Shown piece after piece: positions 9,305-17,687 of a stretch of DNA of 64,000 bases (positions are counted from its first letter, which is position 1; each line of letters opens with the position of its first letter). The stretch comes from Candidatus Thorarchaeota archaeon. GTDB taxonomy: Archaea > Asgardarchaeota > Thorarchaeia > Thorarchaeales > Thorarchaeaceae. Under the pieces are notes generated by a model that worked only from the letters and a program-made list of their open reading frames with translations, was not told where the DNA came from and made no database searches. The stretch covers positions 124,001 to 188,000 of the forward strand of contig RDOC01000004.1 of NCBI GenBank assembly GCA_011364985.1, in the 5' to 3' direction. Position numbers and translations under genes: made by a program.

Positions 9305-9379
9305 GGCCCGAGTGGTGTACTGGCAGCATAAGAGATTGTGGCTCTCTTGAAACGGGTTCGATTCCCGTCTCGGGCCCCA
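9305..9379 (+). tRNA. tRNA-His(GTG), complete, with G-1 and encoded CCA
   Basis: The acceptor GCCCGAG (9306-9312) pairs with CTCGGGC (9369-9375). G-1 at 9305 faces discriminator C at 9376, the hallmark of tRNA-His, and CCA follows at 9377-9379. The anticodon arm AGAGA-TTGTGGC-TCTCT gives anticodon GTG. The T arm is ACGGG-TTCGATT-CCCGT. All stems pair. The D loop, anticodon stem and T stem differ from the broken tRNA-His whose pieces flank it, so it is not a simple duplicate. It is probably the functional tRNA-His. Confidence 0.93.
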
Positions 9380-9461
9380 TATTCCATCTCATCACGAGGC
9401 GTAGCAGTTTTTTGAGATAATGTCTTTTGTTATCCAGATGACATTAATAATCCAACGATAG

Positions 9462-9473
9462 CAAAGGAGCCAC
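9462..9473 (-). pseudogene. Anticodon-arm piece of the disrupted tRNA-His, right flank of the IS607-like element
   Basis: The minus strand reads TGTGGCTCCTTTG across 9474-9462. Joined at GG to the 5' fragment at 17503, it rebuilds a perfect anticodon arm AAGGA-TTGTGGC-TCCTT. After this point (9461 downward) the match to a tRNA-His ends. A 13-base match is short, so the case rests on it sitting exactly at the end of tnpB and completing the stem. Confidence 0.5.
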
Positions 9474-9560
9474 AGCCGTTCATTTTCAATTGGACCTGAT
9501 TTTGCATCAGGCTGTCCCTCCAGGAACGGCACTGGATACTCTGTCTTGAACATGAATGAT
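9470..9560 (-). ncRNA. Candidate omega-RNA 3' end / element right end with hairpin
   Basis: TnpB proteins use a guide RNA (omega-RNA) whose scaffold overlaps the tnpB 3' end and right element end, and whose guide is the flanking host DNA. Here the tnpB stop lies within a perfect 6-bp hairpin CCTGAT-GCAAA-ATCAGG (9511-9495). About 25 bases later the proposed element boundary (9470) is reached. The guide would then begin CTCCTTTG, from the tRNA-His anticodon arm. Placement follows family knowledge; expression and the 5' limit are unknown. Confidence 0.4.
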
Positions 9561-11672
9561 GTTTCGGGCTGCATTCACATCAGCATGGAAATGTTCGTCA
9601 CACAATGAACAATAGAAGTATTCTCCACCCCTTCTCTCGACGGTGGACTGCTCATCTGCAACACGAACACCACGCTCACCACATACATGGCAGGTCTGAG
9701 AAGTGAACCTTGGGTTCACTGTCCACACACTGTATGGTGAGTGTCCAAGTGACACTCGCATATATCTCACTGTGTCTATAATCTTCCCCCATAGATTCGA
9801 ACTTAGGTTGTACGACAGGTCCTTTGACCCACCATGAGCCTGAAAGCTCCTGAGATCCTCGAAGAAAATCTTCTTGACTCGATGCTCCTCACAGAACCAG
9901 ACGGTCTTTGATGCAATGATTCGGGCGATCTCACGGTCAAGACGACGGATCTTTCTCCATAGGGCTTTGATATGCCTGTCCTTCTTGAGGATGTGTTTTG
10001 GATATGACAGTCCTGATCGTTTGCGTCCCCAATTGTTCCTCTTCCTGTCTGTAACTGATTGCAGATCATAGGCCTGCTTTCTCAAGAACTCTCTCTTCTT
10101 CACAAGCTGGTCCACTCTCAACAGGAGTTCCCTGTATTCCTTCCCCTTCATCACCGAGAGCACCACGGGAACTCTAATTCCTCTGTCAACACCAGCCCTT
10201 GCTTCATACTCTCTTTCTCCAAGAACCTGCTGTATCAAGAAATCATCAGGAGCCAAGAAAGGAATCTGCAATGAAATTCTATTCCCCCTCAGAAGAAGTC
10301 GGGGAGGAGCGCTCCTCCTTGAACTCCTGAGTTCTGTGATCTTACTCTGAAGTTTGGTAGTTTCTTCTCCATCCTTACCCTTCTTCTGTTTCACTTTGTA
10401 GAGTCTGTGTGTCAGATGCTGTATCTCAATGGTGTTCATGAGCTGTTGATGCATATCTTCGAACATCGCCGCTCGAAACCTCAACCGCTGGGCACGATGA
10501 CAATCTCCATTGTCCTCTGCGTTCTGAGCCTTGGCTCCGTCTTTGATCGTGGCACTGGACATCCAATCCAGAAATCGAAAAGCCAAGGTCTTTCCCTTGT
10601 ACGGAGAACTCTCATGATGAGTGCCATTAATTCCTGGAGGGAGCTTGATGTGAAAGAGAATCTCATTCTTTCTCTCTGGGTCGACACTAAACCAGTACCC
10701 CTGTCCAGGCGAGTTCTCTGTACTTGCACTGAAATCCAGACTATGACTCCGAAGGCATGGAACAGAGAATAGGTATCCATTCTCTTTCCAAACCTCAAGT
10801 TTCCTTGCAGTAAGAAAGAGGATGCGTTCTTTCTCAGAAACAGAATCCTGAAGCAAGGATGCTACATACTTGCGTTGTCTTCCCCTCCATTGTATCTTGA
10901 CTCCTTGTTCCTCAAGAATGTGGTCATCCAGAGCTAGCCTGAGCTGTCTTAGGACTCCAAGGGAGTGATGAAAACCAGCCCCATCGTTCTTTGCTGAATC
11001 GCATGCATCTCTCACTCTGCGGATAAGATTGGAGGGAATATGCTTTCTTCTCAGAAGTTGAAGTGCATCAGCAGCAGACTCGCTTAGCACCTTGATCGCT
11101 GCATTGAAGAGCTGCCTTCGTGTCCAGTCTGCCAGAAGTGTACGTCCAGCGTGCTCAAGGGCATTGCGATAGAGTCGCTCAAAGCATAATGCCTGAATTT
11201 CCTCGTTCTGCTGGTAATTCAAATCCCTCATCTTCCTGAGAAGGGTATAAGCTCGCCCCCTGTATTCGGATAGTTGCTGACCAAGTGACTGCACACGGTC
11301 ATTATCCTTGTATATTCTTGCAAGCATGAGATTCACTACTTGGACATAGTTGTCAAAGAGAGAACCAAGAAGCTGCAAGTCAACCTCGTCCGCTTTCTTC
11401 CCAGAGCGCTTGGGTATCAGCGTAAATATCTCTTGATTTGGTTTTCTTGATGAAGAAAAGAAGGGGTCAGGTCTTCGATTTCTCCTCCTCTTTGCAATAA
11501 CTCTGTCAACAGAGTTCAGAACAAACGACTCGACAAGATAGGATTTCGATGGGGGTATTATAAAGTTGCCATCAATTTTCTCTTGCTTCTTCTGAGTTTG
11601 AGTGACAGAACCAGATTTCTGCTTCCAGTGATGGCGCTGGATTTCTTGCTTCATCATATGTTCCTGAGTCAT
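9507..11672 (-). CDS. tnpB: Large TnpB/Cas12-like RuvC nuclease
   Basis: A 721-residue protein whose C-terminal third is a TnpB/Cas12 nuclease. RuvC-I is AGVDRGIRVPVV (D496), RuvC-II is KIFFEDLRSF (E605) and RuvC-III is HADVNAARNI (D698). Between the last two lies a zinc ribbon with C661/C664 and C688/C691. All catalytic and zinc residues are present. Ordinary TnpB is about 400 residues; the first 480 here include a basic N-terminus and a long helical region. This puts it in the size range of Cas12 effectors, but no CRISPR array is nearby. It is divergent from the 1774-residue gene. The start ATG lies just downstream of a TATA-like box, suggesting a nearly leaderless mRNA. Confidence 0.85.
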   Translation of the reverse strand: MTQEHMMKQEIQRHHWKQKSGSVTQTQKKQEKIDGNFIIPPSKSYLVESFVLNSVDRVIAKRRRNRRPDPFFSSSRKPNQEIFTLIPKRSGKKADEVDLQLLGSLFDNYVQVVNLMLARIYKDNDRVQSLGQQLSEYRGRAYTLLRKMRDLNYQQNEEIQALCFERLYRNALEHAGRTLLADWTRRQLFNAAIKVLSESAADALQLLRRKHIPSNLIRRVRDACDSAKNDGAGFHHSLGVLRQLRLALDDHILEEQGVKIQWRGRQRKYVASLLQDSVSEKERILFLTARKLEVWKENGYLFSVPCLRSHSLDFSASTENSPGQGYWFSVDPERKNEILFHIKLPPGINGTHHESSPYKGKTLAFRFLDWMSSATIKDGAKAQNAEDNGDCHRAQRLRFRAAMFEDMHQQLMNTIEIQHLTHRLYKVKQKKGKDGEETTKLQSKITELRSSRRSAPPRLLLRGNRISLQIPFLAPDDFLIQQVLGEREYEARAGVDRGIRVPVVLSVMKGKEYRELLLRVDQLVKKREFLRKQAYDLQSVTDRKRNNWGRKRSGLSYPKHILKKDRHIKALWRKIRRLDREIARIIASKTVWFCEEHRVKKIFFEDLRSFQAHGGSKDLSYNLSSNLWGKIIDTVRYMRVSLGHSPYSVWTVNPRFTSQTCHVCGERGVRVADEQSTVERRGGEYFYCSLCDEHFHADVNAARNIIHVQDRVSSAVPGGTA

Positions 11673-11700
11673 TGTTCTTCATCAGCAATATTAACTCAGA

Positions 11701-11710
11701 GTATTATAAA
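11701..11710 (-). promoter_or_regulatory. TATA-like box for tnpB
   Basis: The minus strand reads TTTATAATAC about 30 bases upstream of the tnpB ATG at 11672, in a very AT-rich divergent interval (11673-11848). The spacing fits an archaeal TATA box with transcription starting at or just before the start codon. The divergent gene has AAGGT (11838-11842) before its ATG as a Shine-Dalgarno. Confidence 0.45.
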
Positions 11711-11848
11711 GTTATCAAGATTACTAATTTATTGTCTCTTATTTTTTCTAAAAAAGGGATATAAAGGCTTATAATTGAATTATATGTTATTTTGTTTACT
11801 AACGAAATTTAATTACATGTATGTCGTAGTGTTTTCTAAGGTATCCCC

Positions 11849-14800
11849 ATGAGAGGTAGAAAGGGAAGAATAAACAGCCCAAGTGGCATCCTGAGTACTG
11901 CAATCTACATGGGTCTGGTCGCCCTGTGTCGAATCTCTAGAAACAGAGCAAGTAAGAAGACTAGAAAGTTCCACCGAAGTATCGAGAAGATGTGGGCATC
12001 AGCCCGAGAAGACTACAAGGTCCAAAAGGGCCTAAGACAGAATGACTTCTCGCCTATCAAAAATGCGGAACCAAACATGCGAGGACAATTTCTAAAATTT
12101 GTCTGGACAAGCACAAAACGATATGGAAACAAGGAGTTCAAGCGCGTCTATAGCTGGTTGGAAGGAACGGTTGGACCTCTCAATGCACTTCTGAACTATG
12201 CTGGAGCTTGCCTTCGAGACCTTGCTATGGTTCTATATCCTTTTCCACAGCCTCAGAGGTTCCAAATTCGTGAATGGCCGAACGGGACTAGAAGGATTCT
12301 CACTGAATCAGAAGCTAGTGAGATTACAAAGGATGGTACAGTAAAAGTCCACTGGCGGAGTGGGTATGAGAGGAATGGCAAGAATCCTCGAGTGTTACTC
12401 TCGCATCCAACCTTGCCTAGTCTGGATTTTGTAGACATGATACGGACACATTGCGTCGAGCTCTGTCGACAATGTTTTATCTATCACGTCCCTAGGACTG
12501 AGGCACATCGATACATACGCCTCCTTATTCATCGACTCAAGCCCTTCCTTGACTGGATCTACACAAATGGACAAGAGGGCCGTTCTGGGTTCAATCCTCA
12601 TGCTGACCATGAACTTAGGAAGATGGTCCTTGAGATAAGGTCACTCTATAGAAAAAGTGCTAAGACTAGTAGACGTATCTCGGGGCAGCATAACGAGAAA
12701 CCCATTGACCTCTCTCTTGAGAAAATCCGCCAGAAGGGCATCAAACAATTGGAAGAATCCACTGATGCAAAGGAAAGAAAGCTGTTACAGAAATTCCTAA
12801 ACTATATCGATACTGCATCAGGAGTCGTAGCACGACGTGATATCGAGAAACTAATAGGTCAGATATTGGCTCTTAGTTCACGAGAGGGTACTACTTGGCA
12901 CAGGGTCCTGCTCTCAGACCTCCACCATCCGAAGTCCCTTCGTCAGGTCATTTTTTCTGGGGATCAGCTGCTTACTTCATTCTCATCAATCCTAATAGTT
13001 GCGGAACTCCCTGTTGCAGGACATTCCGGACGAGTGGACCTGACCATTTTCATCAGAAGAGAGATTGCAGGAGAGGTCTTGTGGACTCCGGTGATGATCC
13101 TTGAGATTAAGACAAAGGCAACCTTTGATTTCAACCTCTACGGATTTGAACTCAAGCGAAAAAGAAAGCATGCTGTCACCCCTGCTTTCTACGCATGGAA
13201 ACGCACTATGACTGGGAATGAGTGGCAGAGCATTGTCAATGCAAGTCCCGACCCAGATGCCCTTAATCAACTTCGAGCCTATGAACAGGAGCTTATTGCA
13301 GAGTATAGACAGTTAGCCGCTCATGACCCAGCTCCGCCCTCCTCGCTTTGGAAAGGAGTCATTGTCTTGGATGCTGAAGCGAGTCCGGAGGACATATTTC
13401 CAGCCGTCCAGTTTCTTCTTGAAGATCTGAAGACTGGGCTCCTACAGCAGCTGATTGATCGAGATTCCTTCATTGCTGTTACACCAAAATCCCTAGCTTT
13501 AGAAGGGGACGATCCCAGGGTTTCTCTACTAGTTTCTCCAGCCAGGGGACCTACTGGATTACTCGGCGAGATGGAGCCTCCCACAAGTCTACCCATTGAC
13601 GATCCCTTTGCTGACCGAGAGAGCGACGACCGACTTCTAACACTCTATGTTTCCATTCCTTCTCCAACCTCCTCGGGAGTGACTGCAGCAAGACTCTCTC
13701 GAAACTGGCATCTCCTTCATCATATTCAGGAGTGTATTGAAACAATCTCCTCCATAGAAGATGTGGTGTGGCTAGACCTTATGGGGGATTACAAGAGCGA
13801 TGAGCTTGTCAAGAAACGATTCGGCTTGCATTCCTTGAGACAGGAGAAGATGATATCCAAGAAGTCCTTTCGGGAACTCACCTCAATCCTTCAATCCATC
13901 AGGTTTCTCGACCTGAGTCCATTCATGAACGGGATTCTTACCGAAGGCGCACAGGCATTTAGCAGCCTACTAAACCATATTGCAGCTACAATCCCAGCTG
14001 AGAATGGAGAACAGATCATCATCCTTGATGGATGGACAGACCTGCAAGATATGATTCCAAGACATCAACAGCACCTACTTCGTATCCTTGAGCGAAAACT
14101 GCTTCATGCGCTCCCTCAATCAAATGTTAACATCATCTGGATTGATGACGGTGTGCCCCATACTAAGATGAACCCAGACTACCAGCGTCAGTGCATCAGT
14201 CCTCTTAGGTATGACTCCCTCCGCAAGACTCATGTTGATGAGTTCATCTACAATATGCCAATACCCTCTCCTAGGTTCTGGTGGACAAATCCACAACATG
14301 ATGATATTCGAATCATTGTGCAAGACACCCCGACCAGAGAAAACCCCTGGAAGACGGCAATCTACGTTCCACAACTTTCGGGACTTGCAGAGAAGTTTAG
14401 AGGTCTTGCCAAGCGGGACAGAGTCATTGCTCCTAAGGAAATAGCACAGGATTTGGAAGGGAAGAAACCTATGTATGGACGAGATGTGACCCTGTGTCGC
14501 ATTCATCCATCTTCAGGTATTCTCTCAGAGGATGAACTCTCTGACCTTCTAGAAGATGCGCTCACTCTTGTGCCCAGTACCCTGAGAGAGAGGATGCCCC
14601 GACTAGAAGAAGAGTGTGAAGAAATCCAGATTTCTGAAGATGCTATCTGGCAATCTGTTATCCAGACGACTAGCTCTGCAAGCGGTTCTACGATGGAAGA
14701 AAGGATGAGAATTGATGTAACAAGACCACCCCCACGACCAGGGGGAACTGACCGATACATCGATGTTCTCATCAATGCTAAAAGAGAGCGGATTACAAGA

Positions 14801-17173
14801 TCTTGGTCCTATGACCAGACCCCCAAGCAATTTCCTGATGATGCAGATGAGTCTTATCTGTGTACATTCCCTCCAGAGTTGACGATCTCTGATGCAGTAG
14901 AGATCGACTCCATTGAAACCCGTGAACGAGAGCTTGGACGGCTCAAATCAGCAACCAGATACCTGAAGCAACAGACCTTCCTCTCACAGAAACTAAGGAA
15001 AATGTGCAGGAGGATTGAGAGGCATTGCAATCAGCAATTTGCTCTCATTAAAGACAACCCCTCACTGAAGACCAGTAACTTCTTCTTTAAAGCACTCAAA
15101 CAGGTCGAAACAATTATCCTAGAGGACACGCTAGGAGCAACTATCTGGGAAACACTCCGTTCATCTCGACAAGAACTACTTGATGTTCTGAACTCAGACA
15201 ACAGACAATTCTTAGAGGAGGTCATGAAGGAAACACCTGATGCTCTCCTGCTCTATGGCAATAATCTTGTCCTAGCAATTGTTTCTGTTCTCAAGGACAG
15301 CAACTTGTCTTTAGCAAAGCCTCTCTGGGAGTCTGTTGCTAGGTGGACATTATATCAGATAGGAATGAACAGTGACAATGATATCACAAAGACAGTCTAT
15401 AGCTTTCGAGCAATTCTCTCCAACCTGAGAGCGCGCATCAATACTCTTTCGCATCTCAATCTCCCTGAGATGATTCTGGAACAAGAGCAGGTTGGTGCGA
15501 TCATTTGGATGGAGTCTGAGGCCAGGTATGATGCACTTCTTCTAATATCTCATGATAATACTGGCTTTCTAATTGGCATTATTGAGGGACTAAACAATAG
15601 ATGGATTCCAGCAAAATGGCACTCCTGTAAGACAACTCCCCAGCAGTTAAAACACCATGTGCAGAACGCTCTCACATCCACAGATAGGACACCTGTTATC
15701 ACGACCACGGTTAGAGATTTGAGTGTCCTCCTGATACCTGCGTTGACCGAGGATGATGAACTCGTCTGGAGCTGCTTCTCTCTGAAGCATGGTAGACCCA
15801 GCGGACGACGAAACAGTATTCCATGGATAAAGCTAGAACCTGCTGAATCTCTGGCAGCGCCCAGCCACGTACCTGAGATCCCAGACGAAATTGACGAAAC
15901 TCTCCGGAAGATAATTCGGGTCAAGCACAGCATCACTCCTGTAAAGCTCCTCGTTGGTATAGATGAGGAGCTTGAGGTCTACGAAGTTCAGTTAACGGGC
16001 GAAGGCATTGAAGAACGACGTAAGTTCAGACGAACCAGAGAAGCGGTTCGATTTCTCAGAACTCCAATCAGAGAGGGAGTGGGGTATCGGTGGCAGGGAC
16101 AGACTCTCACTTGGGACCATCGCAAAGATATCGATTATGGCGATTCACTCTCTTTTCTCAGACCTCTTATTCATCGGAGCAAGTTCTACCCCGATATCTA
16201 TCATTATCCAAAGACATGCAAGGACCTCCTTACCGCAAGCAAAGGACATGAGATAATCATGGTCATCAGTCAAGAGGGACCGACATACCGGGTCAAGTTT
16301 CAGGATCTCCCAGACCAATCTGCTCTGAGAGAACTGGAGATAGCGGAACTGGACATCCATGCACTGGGCCTACTTGCAGAGTGCAAGGAACTCTTTGACC
16401 TCGGAAGCAGGACTTGGCACCCATTAGTGCTAGATGTCAACGCTATCATGGACCTCTGGTTCCCCAAGCTTCATGAATACCCCCGGCTAATTGAGGCGAT
16501 TCAGGCCGCTGATGTTAACGAGTTCAACTGGTCAAGAGAAACATGGTTCATAGAGATTAGGCTTTGGAGAAATGAACTGAGATGGTGCATCATGTCGAAG
16601 ACAACAGGACTGCCTTGGATGAACAGGGAATTCACATATATCCTTACTCTTGGAAGAGAGCCTGATAAGGAGTTGGAGGCTTTCAAGGAGGTGGTCACGG
16701 CCATTGTTCAGCCAGAGCATCTCTGCAATCTGGATGACGAGCTTGAAACGTACAAGGTGACACTCAAGGAGAGGTATAGTGAATACCTTCGGACTGTCAG
16801 TGTGGAAGACGCGGATGAGAGAAAAGCTGAAGATGAGCTGGAGAAAGCTGCTGCTATAGGCGCTCCATGGGAGAGAATAGCGTTCAGGTATAGCGGAATG
16901 AAACTCAGGAGAATAAAAAGAAACACCGTGGTTGTTGTTTCCTTGGTGTCCGGCGAAGAAGAAGCAGAGGTGTACGTGGTGAGGGATGTCCAAAGGTATG
17001 TGAATGAATCTCGGTCAGCAGGTGCAATCCACTCAGAACCTGTTGATGATGAGGTGAAGGAGAGTCTTGCAGACTATGAGTTTGAGAAGGGCGAGCTTGA
17101 AAGAATCAAGGCGGCTGTCAGGAAAGTGTTGGAGGAGGAAGGAGTCAGGTTTTCTAATGAACAGGCCTTTTAG
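11849..17173 (+). CDS. Giant protein with RecB-type PD-(D/E)XK nuclease core and possible degenerate RecA-like domain
   Basis: A 1774-residue protein not recognised as a whole. Residues about 340-490 carry a RecB-family nuclease core: GHSGRVDLTIF (D397), MILEIKTK (E419, K421) and NQLRAYEQEL (Q474, Y478). Residues about 595-820 show a RecA-like strand order: VSIPSPTSSGVTAARLS where a P-loop would be (Lys replaced by Val), VVWLDL, then EQIIILDGW like Walker B, then NVNIIWIDDG. The remaining 950 residues are soluble, charged and partly helical, with no membrane segments. It lies in an IS607-like element divergent from a large tnpB, so it is cargo or partner. A role in defence or element maintenance is a guess. 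ATG with an AAGGT ribosome site; the stop abuts the tnpA relic. Confidence 0.8.
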   Translation: MRGRKGRINSPSGILSTAIYMGLVALCRISRNRASKKTRKFHRSIEKMWASAREDYKVQKGLRQNDFSPIKNAEPNMRGQFLKFVWTSTKRYGNKEFKRVYSWLEGTVGPLNALLNYAGACLRDLAMVLYPFPQPQRFQIREWPNGTRRILTESEASEITKDGTVKVHWRSGYERNGKNPRVLLSHPTLPSLDFVDMIRTHCVELCRQCFIYHVPRTEAHRYIRLLIHRLKPFLDWIYTNGQEGRSGFNPHADHELRKMVLEIRSLYRKSAKTSRRISGQHNEKPIDLSLEKIRQKGIKQLEESTDAKERKLLQKFLNYIDTASGVVARRDIEKLIGQILALSSREGTTWHRVLLSDLHHPKSLRQVIFSGDQLLTSFSSILIVAELPVAGHSGRVDLTIFIRREIAGEVLWTPVMILEIKTKATFDFNLYGFELKRKRKHAVTPAFYAWKRTMTGNEWQSIVNASPDPDALNQLRAYEQELIAEYRQLAAHDPAPPSSLWKGVIVLDAEASPEDIFPAVQFLLEDLKTGLLQQLIDRDSFIAVTPKSLALEGDDPRVSLLVSPARGPTGLLGEMEPPTSLPIDDPFADRESDDRLLTLYVSIPSPTSSGVTAARLSRNWHLLHHIQECIETISSIEDVVWLDLMGDYKSDELVKKRFGLHSLRQEKMISKKSFRELTSILQSIRFLDLSPFMNGILTEGAQAFSSLLNHIAATIPAENGEQIIILDGWTDLQDMIPRHQQHLLRILERKLLHALPQSNVNIIWIDDGVPHTKMNPDYQRQCISPLRYDSLRKTHVDEFIYNMPIPSPRFWWTNPQHDDIRIIVQDTPTRENPWKTAIYVPQLSGLAEKFRGLAKRDRVIAPKEIAQDLEGKKPMYGRDVTLCRIHPSSGILSEDELSDLLEDALTLVPSTLRERMPRLEEECEEIQISEDAIWQSVIQTTSSASGSTMEERMRIDVTRPPPRPGGTDRYIDVLINAKRERITRSWSYDQTPKQFPDDADESYLCTFPPELTISDAVEIDSIETRERELGRLKSATRYLKQQTFLSQKLRKMCRRIERHCNQQFALIKDNPSLKTSNFFFKALKQVETIILEDTLGATIWETLRSSRQELLDVLNSDNRQFLEEVMKETPDALLLYGNNLVLAIVSVLKDSNLSLAKPLWESVARWTLYQIGMNSDNDITKTVYSFRAILSNLRARINTLSHLNLPEMILEQEQVGAIIWMESEARYDALLLISHDNTGFLIGIIEGLNNRWIPAKWHSCKTTPQQLKHHVQNALTSTDRTPVITTTVRDLSVLLIPALTEDDELVWSCFSLKHGRPSGRRNSIPWIKLEPAESLAAPSHVPEIPDEIDETLRKIIRVKHSITPVKLLVGIDEELEVYEVQLTGEGIEERRKFRRTREAVRFLRTPIREGVGYRWQGQTLTWDHRKDIDYGDSLSFLRPLIHRSKFYPDIYHYPKTCKDLLTASKGHEIIMVISQEGPTYRVKFQDLPDQSALRELEIAELDIHALGLLAECKELFDLGSRTWHPLVLDVNAIMDLWFPKLHEYPRLIEAIQAADVNEFNWSRETWFIEIRLWRNELRWCIMSKTTGLPWMNREFTYILTLGREPDKELEAFKEVVTAIVQPEHLCNLDDELETYKVTLKERYSEYLRTVSVEDADERKAEDELEKAAAIGAPWERIAFRYSGMKLRRIKRNTVVVVSLVSGEEEAEVYVVRDVQRYVNESRSAGAIHSEPVDDEVKESLADYEFEKGELERIKAAVRKVLEEEGVRFSNEQAF

Positions 17174-17174
17174 A

Positions 17175-17384
17175 CTAATGAGCACACAACTCGTAGACCC
17201 TTCATGAGAAGAAGGCGATGAGAGATATCATGTCAGAAACCAGCTCCTTCTGTGGACTCTGCTGTTCTGGTATATAGAGAATCTCAACACCCACTCCATA
17301 GTCCTTGAGGATCCCTAGAAGAATGCTGGTGACCTTGACATCCTACTCGGTGTTTAGGACTGACCTAGTCTTTAAAGCAGTCAT
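17175..17384 (-). pseudogene. tnpA: IS607-type serine recombinase (TnpA) relic, C-terminal part
   Basis: One minus-strand frame encodes YGVGVEILYIPEQQSPQKEL, then VSDMISLIAFFS, stop, RVYELCAH. This matches the IS607 TnpA signature in which a Gly-Val-x-Val-Glu strand leads to P-x-x-E-L-V-x-D-x-I-S-I-x-x-x-F-S-x-R-L-Y-G-L. It is broken by TAG at 17345-17343 and TGA at 17204-17202, the latter where Gly or Ala is usual, and ends at TAG 17177-17175. The N-terminal HTH and catalytic Ser domain are not intact upstream. Only one base separates it from the stop of the convergent giant gene. Confidence 0.65.
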
Positions 17385-17500
17385 CTTACCCTTTGTCAAG
17401 AAAAAAAGCAGTGTTTTTTTCTCAAGGATTTTCAGTGGGAAGCTAATATTGAACATACGGAAACACGAGCGAAGAACGAGGTGAGATACATGCAGAGATT

Positions 17501-17539
17501 AGCCACAATCCTTTATGTTACCATTACACCACTCGGGCC
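17501..17539 (-). pseudogene. 5' half of a disrupted tRNA-His gene
   Basis: The minus strand reads G-1 (17539), acceptor GCCCGAG (17538-17532), a full D arm, then AAGGATTGTGGC with anticodon GTG at 17506-17504. Nineteen bases (from CAATGG through GTGTA) are identical to the start of the intact tRNA-His at 9305. The following bases differ at several stem and loop positions, as between two real tRNAs. After GTGGCT the sequence leaves the tRNA and no T arm follows within 330 bases. The rest of this 514-base gene-free interval (17174-17687) holds the tnpA relic and AT-rich sequence. Confidence 0.75.
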
Positions 17540-17687
17540 ATTGTTTACTAAGAAGCCAGCGATGACCAGCTCGTTTGTTTTTTCTTATTAGGTTATCCGT
17601 TTAGCAACTCCACAAGCATCCCAAACAAAAGCATGGCATGATTCAAAAACATCTTCCATCAATCGGAAGCGAGGAGATTGTAATAGG

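Follow-up and report, generated by a model that had tools for sequence, protein, structure and literature searches.

We found that the 1774-residue protein encoded at 11849–17173 of the stretch analysed here (64,000 nucleotides of the Candidatus Thorarchaeota contig RDOC01000004.1, from a 1.7-Mb assembly that is 74% complete; hereafter the window) belongs to a mobile element. Its gene, which is intact and open throughout on the plus strand, lies divergent from an intact gene for a 721-residue TnpB (9507–11672, minus strand), and the two genes fill the element. The pairing of this giant protein with TnpB, its nuclease and Rad51-like folds, the ends of the element, its insertion sites and its non-autonomous derivatives are established here. 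We propose, with a probability of roughly 0.55, that this is an autonomous two-gene TnpB transposon with a giant casposase-like mobilisation enzyme: the giant would catalyse insertion, its N-terminus would be related to Cas1 and TnpB would use a guide. The features of the locus are listed below.

9475–17500: mobile element (tnpB, giant gene and both ends), 8,026 bp; delimited by an omega-RNA end kept across copies, flanking 7-bp repeats and the rebuilt tRNA-His
9468–9474, plus strand: left target-site duplication AGCCACA, identical to 17501–17507
17501–17507, plus strand: right target-site duplication AGCCACA
9507–11672, minus strand: tnpB, RNA-guided nuclease, 721 residues; identified by Pfam, NCBIfam and an alignment of 54 TnpBs
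9476–9538, minus strand: omega-RNA-like scaffold, which overlaps the stop codon of tnpB, with a hairpin and a pseudoknot (CCGTT loop with AACGG end)
9461–9475, minus strand: putative guide start 5'-CTGTGGCTCCTTTGC; guide use as expected from known TnpB biology
11673–11848: intergenic region between the divergent genes, 176 bp
11849–17173, plus strand: giant gene, 1774 residues, about 60 relatives
11849–12658, plus strand: giant residues 1–270, helical domain, candidate Cas1-like integrase (invariant residues, profile match to Cas1)
12833–13372, plus strand: giant residues 329–508, RecB-family PD-(D/E)XK nuclease with four complete motifs
13616–14398, plus strand: giant residues 590–850, Rad51/RecA-like core in which the Walker A lysine is not conserved
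14546–17170, plus strand: giant residues 900–1774, helical bundle then beta-rich modules, length-variable, without known relative
17501–17546, minus strand: 5' half of a tRNA-His gene split by the element
9306–9379, plus strand: intact neighbouring tRNA-His gene, which differs from the split one, just outside the element

A sequence-only reading of this DNA had proposed checking whether the giant recurs beside TnpB, and it does so: a TnpB-like gene lies head-to-head with the giant at 57 loci in two archaeal families, separated from it by a median of 241 bp (54 copies measured). The giant family is present in 25 genomes, all of one archaeal family (59 relatives searched), and when 228 genomes of the phylum were searched with a profile, three more came from a second archaeal family, whose three loci (L138–L140) also have TnpB, and none from elsewhere. 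The approximately 60 relatives come from metagenome-assembled genomes of Thorarchaeota and Heimdallarchaeota; those with a name in the public genome collection belong to Candidatus Thorarchaeota, apart from a distant Heimdallarchaeota branch. Copies are 1.4–1.96 thousand residues long and occur in several copies per genome; the genome of the window has three further copies, one of them broken. At a decayed copy in this genome (L090:6598-8770, contig 15), the giant gene is broken and the TnpB gene (558 aa) is still open. Among the loci that have 1 kb or more of sequence upstream, just four are without TnpB (L061, L062, L068 and L069), and in each of them a RadA/Rad51-like gene lies directly downstream of the giant. 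This gene matches Pfam Rad51 at L061 (5e-23) and, in this subgroup, the RadA model below its cut-off (4e-37); its P-loop is intact at L061, L062 and L069. TnpB pieces other than the divergent partner are rare, with five across all searched flanks. When the two TnpB types found beside giants, long (~720 aa) and medium (~560 aa), were mapped on a tree of 50 giant proteins, 10 changes of type were needed, at least nine of them forced by well-supported branches; L042, a close relative of the window copy, for example, has the other TnpB type. The slot stayed filled through at least nine switches, and it is therefore kept while TnpB itself is exchanged.

The TnpB of the window has the RuvC residues D (AGVDRGI), E (FFEDLR) and D (HADVNAAR) as well as the zinc-ribbon cysteines, and it matches Pfam Cas12f1-like_TNB (7e-13) and, below the family cut-off, NCBIfam guided_TnpB (4e-19). 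In the alignment of 54 TnpBs, both RuvC aspartates are present wherever a copy spans the sites, and the glutamate is conserved only in the long type; medium TnpBs such as L078:5011-6693 have a GRLKNIR-like motif where the RuvC-II glutamate is expected. In long-TnpB copies, a scaffold of ~63 nucleotides overlaps the tnpB stop codon and stops sharply at the element border (9475/9476 in the window). Across 11 sequences, its hairpin and pseudoknot were paired in 98.2% of cells, compared with 26–55% when the structure was slid, although only one pair showed changes on both sides. A conserved scaffold at this position is as expected of an omega RNA, and we regard it as omega-RNA-like. The last 14 nucleotides of CTGTGGCTCCTTTGC, the start of the putative guide, match the anticodon arm of tRNA-His in a sister species with one difference. 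Near-identical guide-like flanks also occur in elements of different genomes, at L057/L065/L096 and at L059/L089 (GTGCATGCAGCC... and GGACGTCCCTGCTTCTTGC, respectively), which suggests conserved targets other than tRNA genes.

The ends of the element can be read from its insertion sites. In the window, AGCCACA lies outside the element on both sides, and when the flanks are joined at this repeat, they restore 50 nucleotides of a tRNA-His gene, around the anticodon, that match the gene of the sister species at 48 positions, the two differences leaving the pairing of the anticodon stem intact. The insertion thus interrupted the anticodon loop of a tRNA-His gene. In G003, a sister genome, this tRNA-His position is filled by a different element, whose giant is only 26% identical. 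A second case is provided by L079 and L082, which are 93.7% identical across 8.18 kb and have unrelated flanks; genome G005 (L084) has the empty site of L079, and GCCAAAA is found at both ends of the insert. A third insertion, seen by comparing L050 with L063, has a blurred repeat of ~7 bp. Eight of the 11 tRNA genes within 800 bp of copies begin no more than ~210 bp from the element genes, and thus tRNA genes seem to be favoured as a target, though not the only one. We also considered a plain tRNA-integrase model, in which insertion leaves direct repeats of tRNA 3' ends. This model accounts for L078, and perhaps for L052 and L063; it does not fit the window or L079, and for this reason we did not use it as a general mechanism. 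At L078:4804-14697 (contig 16 of the same genome as the window), a tRNA-Gly gene is followed by two tandem insertions, first a TnpB–giant pair and then a gene for a 981-aa Schlafen/AlbA-domain protein. A tRNA 3' half borders each insertion, with three such halves around the two; the empty site is present in two sister species.

Non-autonomous derivatives show that the ends spread without the genes between them. Genome G030, which has only a fragment of the giant, contains 14 pieces of mini-elements of ~440 bp, 11 of them nearly complete. These share both L051-type element ends, including the tnpB end with the scaffold, and are 83–100% identical to one another in unrelated surroundings; a similar set of ~650 bp belongs to the L080 type. 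In the multicopy sets L263–L273 (G030) and L274–L282 (genus g3), the ends and the omega-RNA scaffold are all that is left of the element. No consistent target duplication was found at mini-element junctions, so insertion may not always duplicate its target, or the mini-element borders are inexact. A fixed 7-bp duplication for every copy was looked for and was not found at the mini-elements.

To our knowledge, TnpB transposons described so far depend on a Y1 or a serine enzyme. In the window, no Y1 transposase or other transposase gene, and no gene beyond tnpB and the giant, lies between the element ends; no serine recombinase (IS607 TnpA) lies there or adjoining, and the neighbouring genes look chromosomal. 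The label 'IS607-like' that the sequence-only reading had given to the element is thus not supported; its TnpB also scores far under the NCBIfam cut-off for IS607 TnpB. As the element has neither an IS607 recombinase nor any other transposase known so far, the best candidate for the mobiliser is the giant, and because two genes fill the element, it is the only candidate integrase within it. The omega-RNA-like scaffold at the right end, overlapping the tnpB stop, and a guide that would derive from the flank are shared with IS200/IS605 and IS607 elements. Unlike those, the window element has a divergent giant gene in place of a Y1 (HUH) transposase or serine recombinase, clear insertions carry 7-bp repeats, and TnpB is of the long or medium type.

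The first part of the giant offers a candidate for the integrase. Residues 1–270 are largely helical, and E74, R78, N112, H186, D193, D196 and R199 are invariant in an alignment of 47 members, in motifs (E-x3-R, GPLNxLLNYAGAxLR and H-x6-DFxDMIR) that resemble Cas1. Using hhalign, we compared the giant profile with a profile built from Cas1 proteins collected within the phylum. Residues 12–122 aligned with Cas1 in register over ~100 columns, a weak match (P 0.006, probability 3–11%) that places E74 on the catalytic glutamate of Cas1 and N112 on its DPVN motif. When an insertion at 135–182 was removed, the alignment reached DxxD over 137 columns (P 0.003), and none of 200 column shuffles scored as high. 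The order E, N, H, DxxD in the giant agrees, within this weak profile match, with that of the Cas1 catalytic residues and DPxN motif. On these grounds, the N-terminus of the giant is probably related to Cas1. The earlier statement that some 950 residues match nothing thus held for most of them; the N-terminal ~270 are the part that now looks Cas1-like.

Several observations weigh against a casposase-like transposon. In the first profile test, one of 150 shuffles beat the Cas1 match, and its hhalign probability stays at 3–11%. Searches of Pfam (PF01867), of PDB sequences and of the top 50 Foldseek matches gave no match of the giant to Cas1, and the N-terminal beta domain of Cas1 is absent from it. 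The 7-bp repeats are clear at two insertions, blurred at the third and could not be seen at 14 junctions of mini-elements or elements, and no inverted terminal repeats were seen by eye. In addition, the shorter TnpB type lacks, where the sequences align, the glutamate usually found in RuvC-II.

A Cas1 search of the phylum revealed a second family of giants, of 1,325–2,772 aa, with a DEAD helicase, a cysteine-rich part and a recognised Cas1 domain. In another Asgard genome (G131), three of them (L214, L216 and L217) are divergent from TnpB; their Cas1 domain is detected by Pfam Cas1 in the two that were scanned (4e-9 and 3e-6) and by the profile in the third (E 9e-10). These Cas1 giants with TnpB are an independent instance of the same architecture. 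Other giants of this second family (L219–L221, in G057 and G217) stand without TnpB, and a RAMP-superfamily gene is confirmed downstream of L219.

Downstream of the Cas1-like region, the giant carries an intact RecB-type nuclease, judged from its motifs and predicted fold. An alignment of 47 sequences was the input for AlphaFold, which modelled residues 1–905 well (predicted local distance difference test (pLDDT) 87, predicted template modelling score (pTM) 0.86). The active site that the sequence-only reading had picked out (D397, E419-x-K421 and Q474-x3-Y478) was borne out: D397, K421, Q474 and Y478 are invariant, and position 419 is E in 24 members and D in 23. G347xxxH351 and the G394/D397 pair of the GxxD motif show no variation either, and 45 of the 47 members have E386, so that all four motifs, GxxxH, GxxD, (E/D)xK and QxxxY, are complete. 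The PD-(D/E)XK core, which had been placed at 340–490, appears in the predicted structure at 329–508 in the alpha-beta-beta-beta-alpha-beta order (helix 329–354, strands 381–389, 394–406 and 409–423, helix 469–489 and strand 501–508). Neither of the two findings that would have spoken against the sequence-only reading, a structure lacking this core or homologues never located near tnpB or mobile elements, was obtained. The dead RecA-like domain suspected about 200 residues further on was recovered as well. Residues ~590–850 fold like Rad51, with RAD51-paralogue complexes and RAD51 as the best PDB matches (Foldseek, E 1e-5 to 1e-3, probability ~1.0), and W641, D643, G728 and W764 are invariant. 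The position of the P-loop lysine is unconserved, with K in three members by eye (L044, L046 and L081), and D, S or T occupies the Walker-B-like position; because neither the Walker A lysine nor the Walker B aspartate is conserved, the domain is probably inactive as an ATPase.

In the transposition mechanism that we favour, the omega RNA would be read from the right end of the element and its guide taken from the flanking target. Joining of the element ends to target DNA would fall to the Cas1-like, casposase-like domain and trimming or resection of DNA ends to the RecB/Cas4-like nuclease, and the dead Rad51-like domain would probably serve as a scaffold for DNA or host RadA. TnpB would cut the empty target, in the window the anticodon arm of tRNA-His (candidate target sequence TGTGGCTCCTTTGC), favouring retention and homing of the element.

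A possible but clearly less probable explanation is that the pair brings about homing and not transposition. The empty target would be cut by TnpB, and its repair, through RecB-like resection and Rad51-like bridging to host RadA, would be the task of the giant; the element would be copied into the cut by homologous recombination, with first insertions made by an enzyme acting in trans. The RecB and Rad51 folds of the giant suit this role, as does the RadA/Rad51-like gene, with its P-loop, that neighbours the giant in the TnpB-less subgroup. The putative guide equals the insertion target, one tRNA-His site is held by different elements in sister species, and near-identical guide-like flanks recur across genomes (L057/L065 and L059/L089). 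However, the insertions at unrelated sites with short repeats (L079/L082) and the spread of the mini-elements need an activity that is free of flank homology.

It is unlikely that the giant represents some other, so far unknown kind of transposase, which cleaves through its PD-(D/E)XK nuclease and has an N-terminal helical domain unrelated to Cas1. The RecB motifs are indeed the best-supported catalytic site, and the likeness to Cas1 is just a weak profile match, but the invariant E/N/H/DxxD order agrees with Cas1 and beats shuffled controls, and we know of no PD-(D/E)XK enzyme that joins strands alone. We give very little credence to the two-part defence or element-protection system in an IS607-like element put forward by the sequence-only reading: TnpB and a nuclease could attack invaders and variable neighbourhoods are typical of defence genes too, but no match to a defence-library family is common to the members, there is no IS607 recombinase, and the two genes fill, end to end, a transposable unit with ends, sites and end-only derivatives that have spread.

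The chances are about even that these elements form a previously undescribed transposon class, in which TnpB is coupled to a giant Cas1–RecB–Rad51 fusion integrase, and that Asgard archaea evolved the coupling of TnpB to Cas1 two or more times. TnpB gave rise to Cas12 and a casposase to Cas1, and these lineages meet, together with the RecB-type Cas4, in type V CRISPR systems. If our reading is true, the protein lineages of type V CRISPR already cooperate in one mobile element outside CRISPR; if confirmed, DNA would here transpose by a new route, with the lineages of TnpB and Cas1 coupled by nature, in an element that is abundant in Thorarchaeota. Because multicopy minimal derivatives define the ends, integration is directly testable in vitro.

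We found no description of TnpB coupled to a Cas1-like giant in the open-licence literature. Among the nearest systems already described are casposons: these too are archaeal, a subset of them inserts in tRNA genes, and the element would share with them a Cas1-like integrase as the likely mobiliser. Casposons have inverted terminal repeats and a target duplication of 14–15 bp (PMC6977970), whereas here the repeats are short or absent, no inverted terminal repeats were seen and there is no PolB gene. The window copy is also inserted in the anticodon loop rather than at the 3' end, TnpB is present and the Cas1-like domain is fused into a protein of more than a thousand residues (1.4–1.96 thousand). 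Aloposons of Heimdallarchaeia are Asgard elements with giant proteins at tRNA genes too, but they have tandem genes for proteins of 3,000–6,000 aa and a ParA-like gene (PMC8813620), and the window element has a single 1774-aa giant gene and no ParA; neither TnpB nor Cas1 is mentioned in the main text of that paper (PMC8813620). As in RecB/Cas4 nucleases and CRISPR Cas4–Cas1 pairs, the RecB motifs are complete and the nuclease follows the Cas1-like region. Unlike in those pairs, the giant has additional Rad51-like and unmatched domains and, with only two genes in the element, there is no Cas2. The giant resembles the Rad51/RadA family in the fold of residues 590–850 and departs from it in its unconserved Walker residues.

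Residues 860–1774 form a helical bundle followed by beta-rich modules (AlphaFold, residues 900–1774: pLDDT 82, pTM 0.44), and structure and profile searches gave this C-terminal part no confident relative. Searches of Pfam, NCBIfam, PADLOC and PDB sequences with the whole giant, its N- and C-terminal halves and alignments assigned it to no family. A likeness of the C-terminal half to B-family polymerases, as expected from casposons, was weak (E 0.05, probability <0.3) and is not claimed. No relative of the giant was found on viral contigs, and its matches in a library of viral protein structures were mostly to RecA-like primases and helicases.
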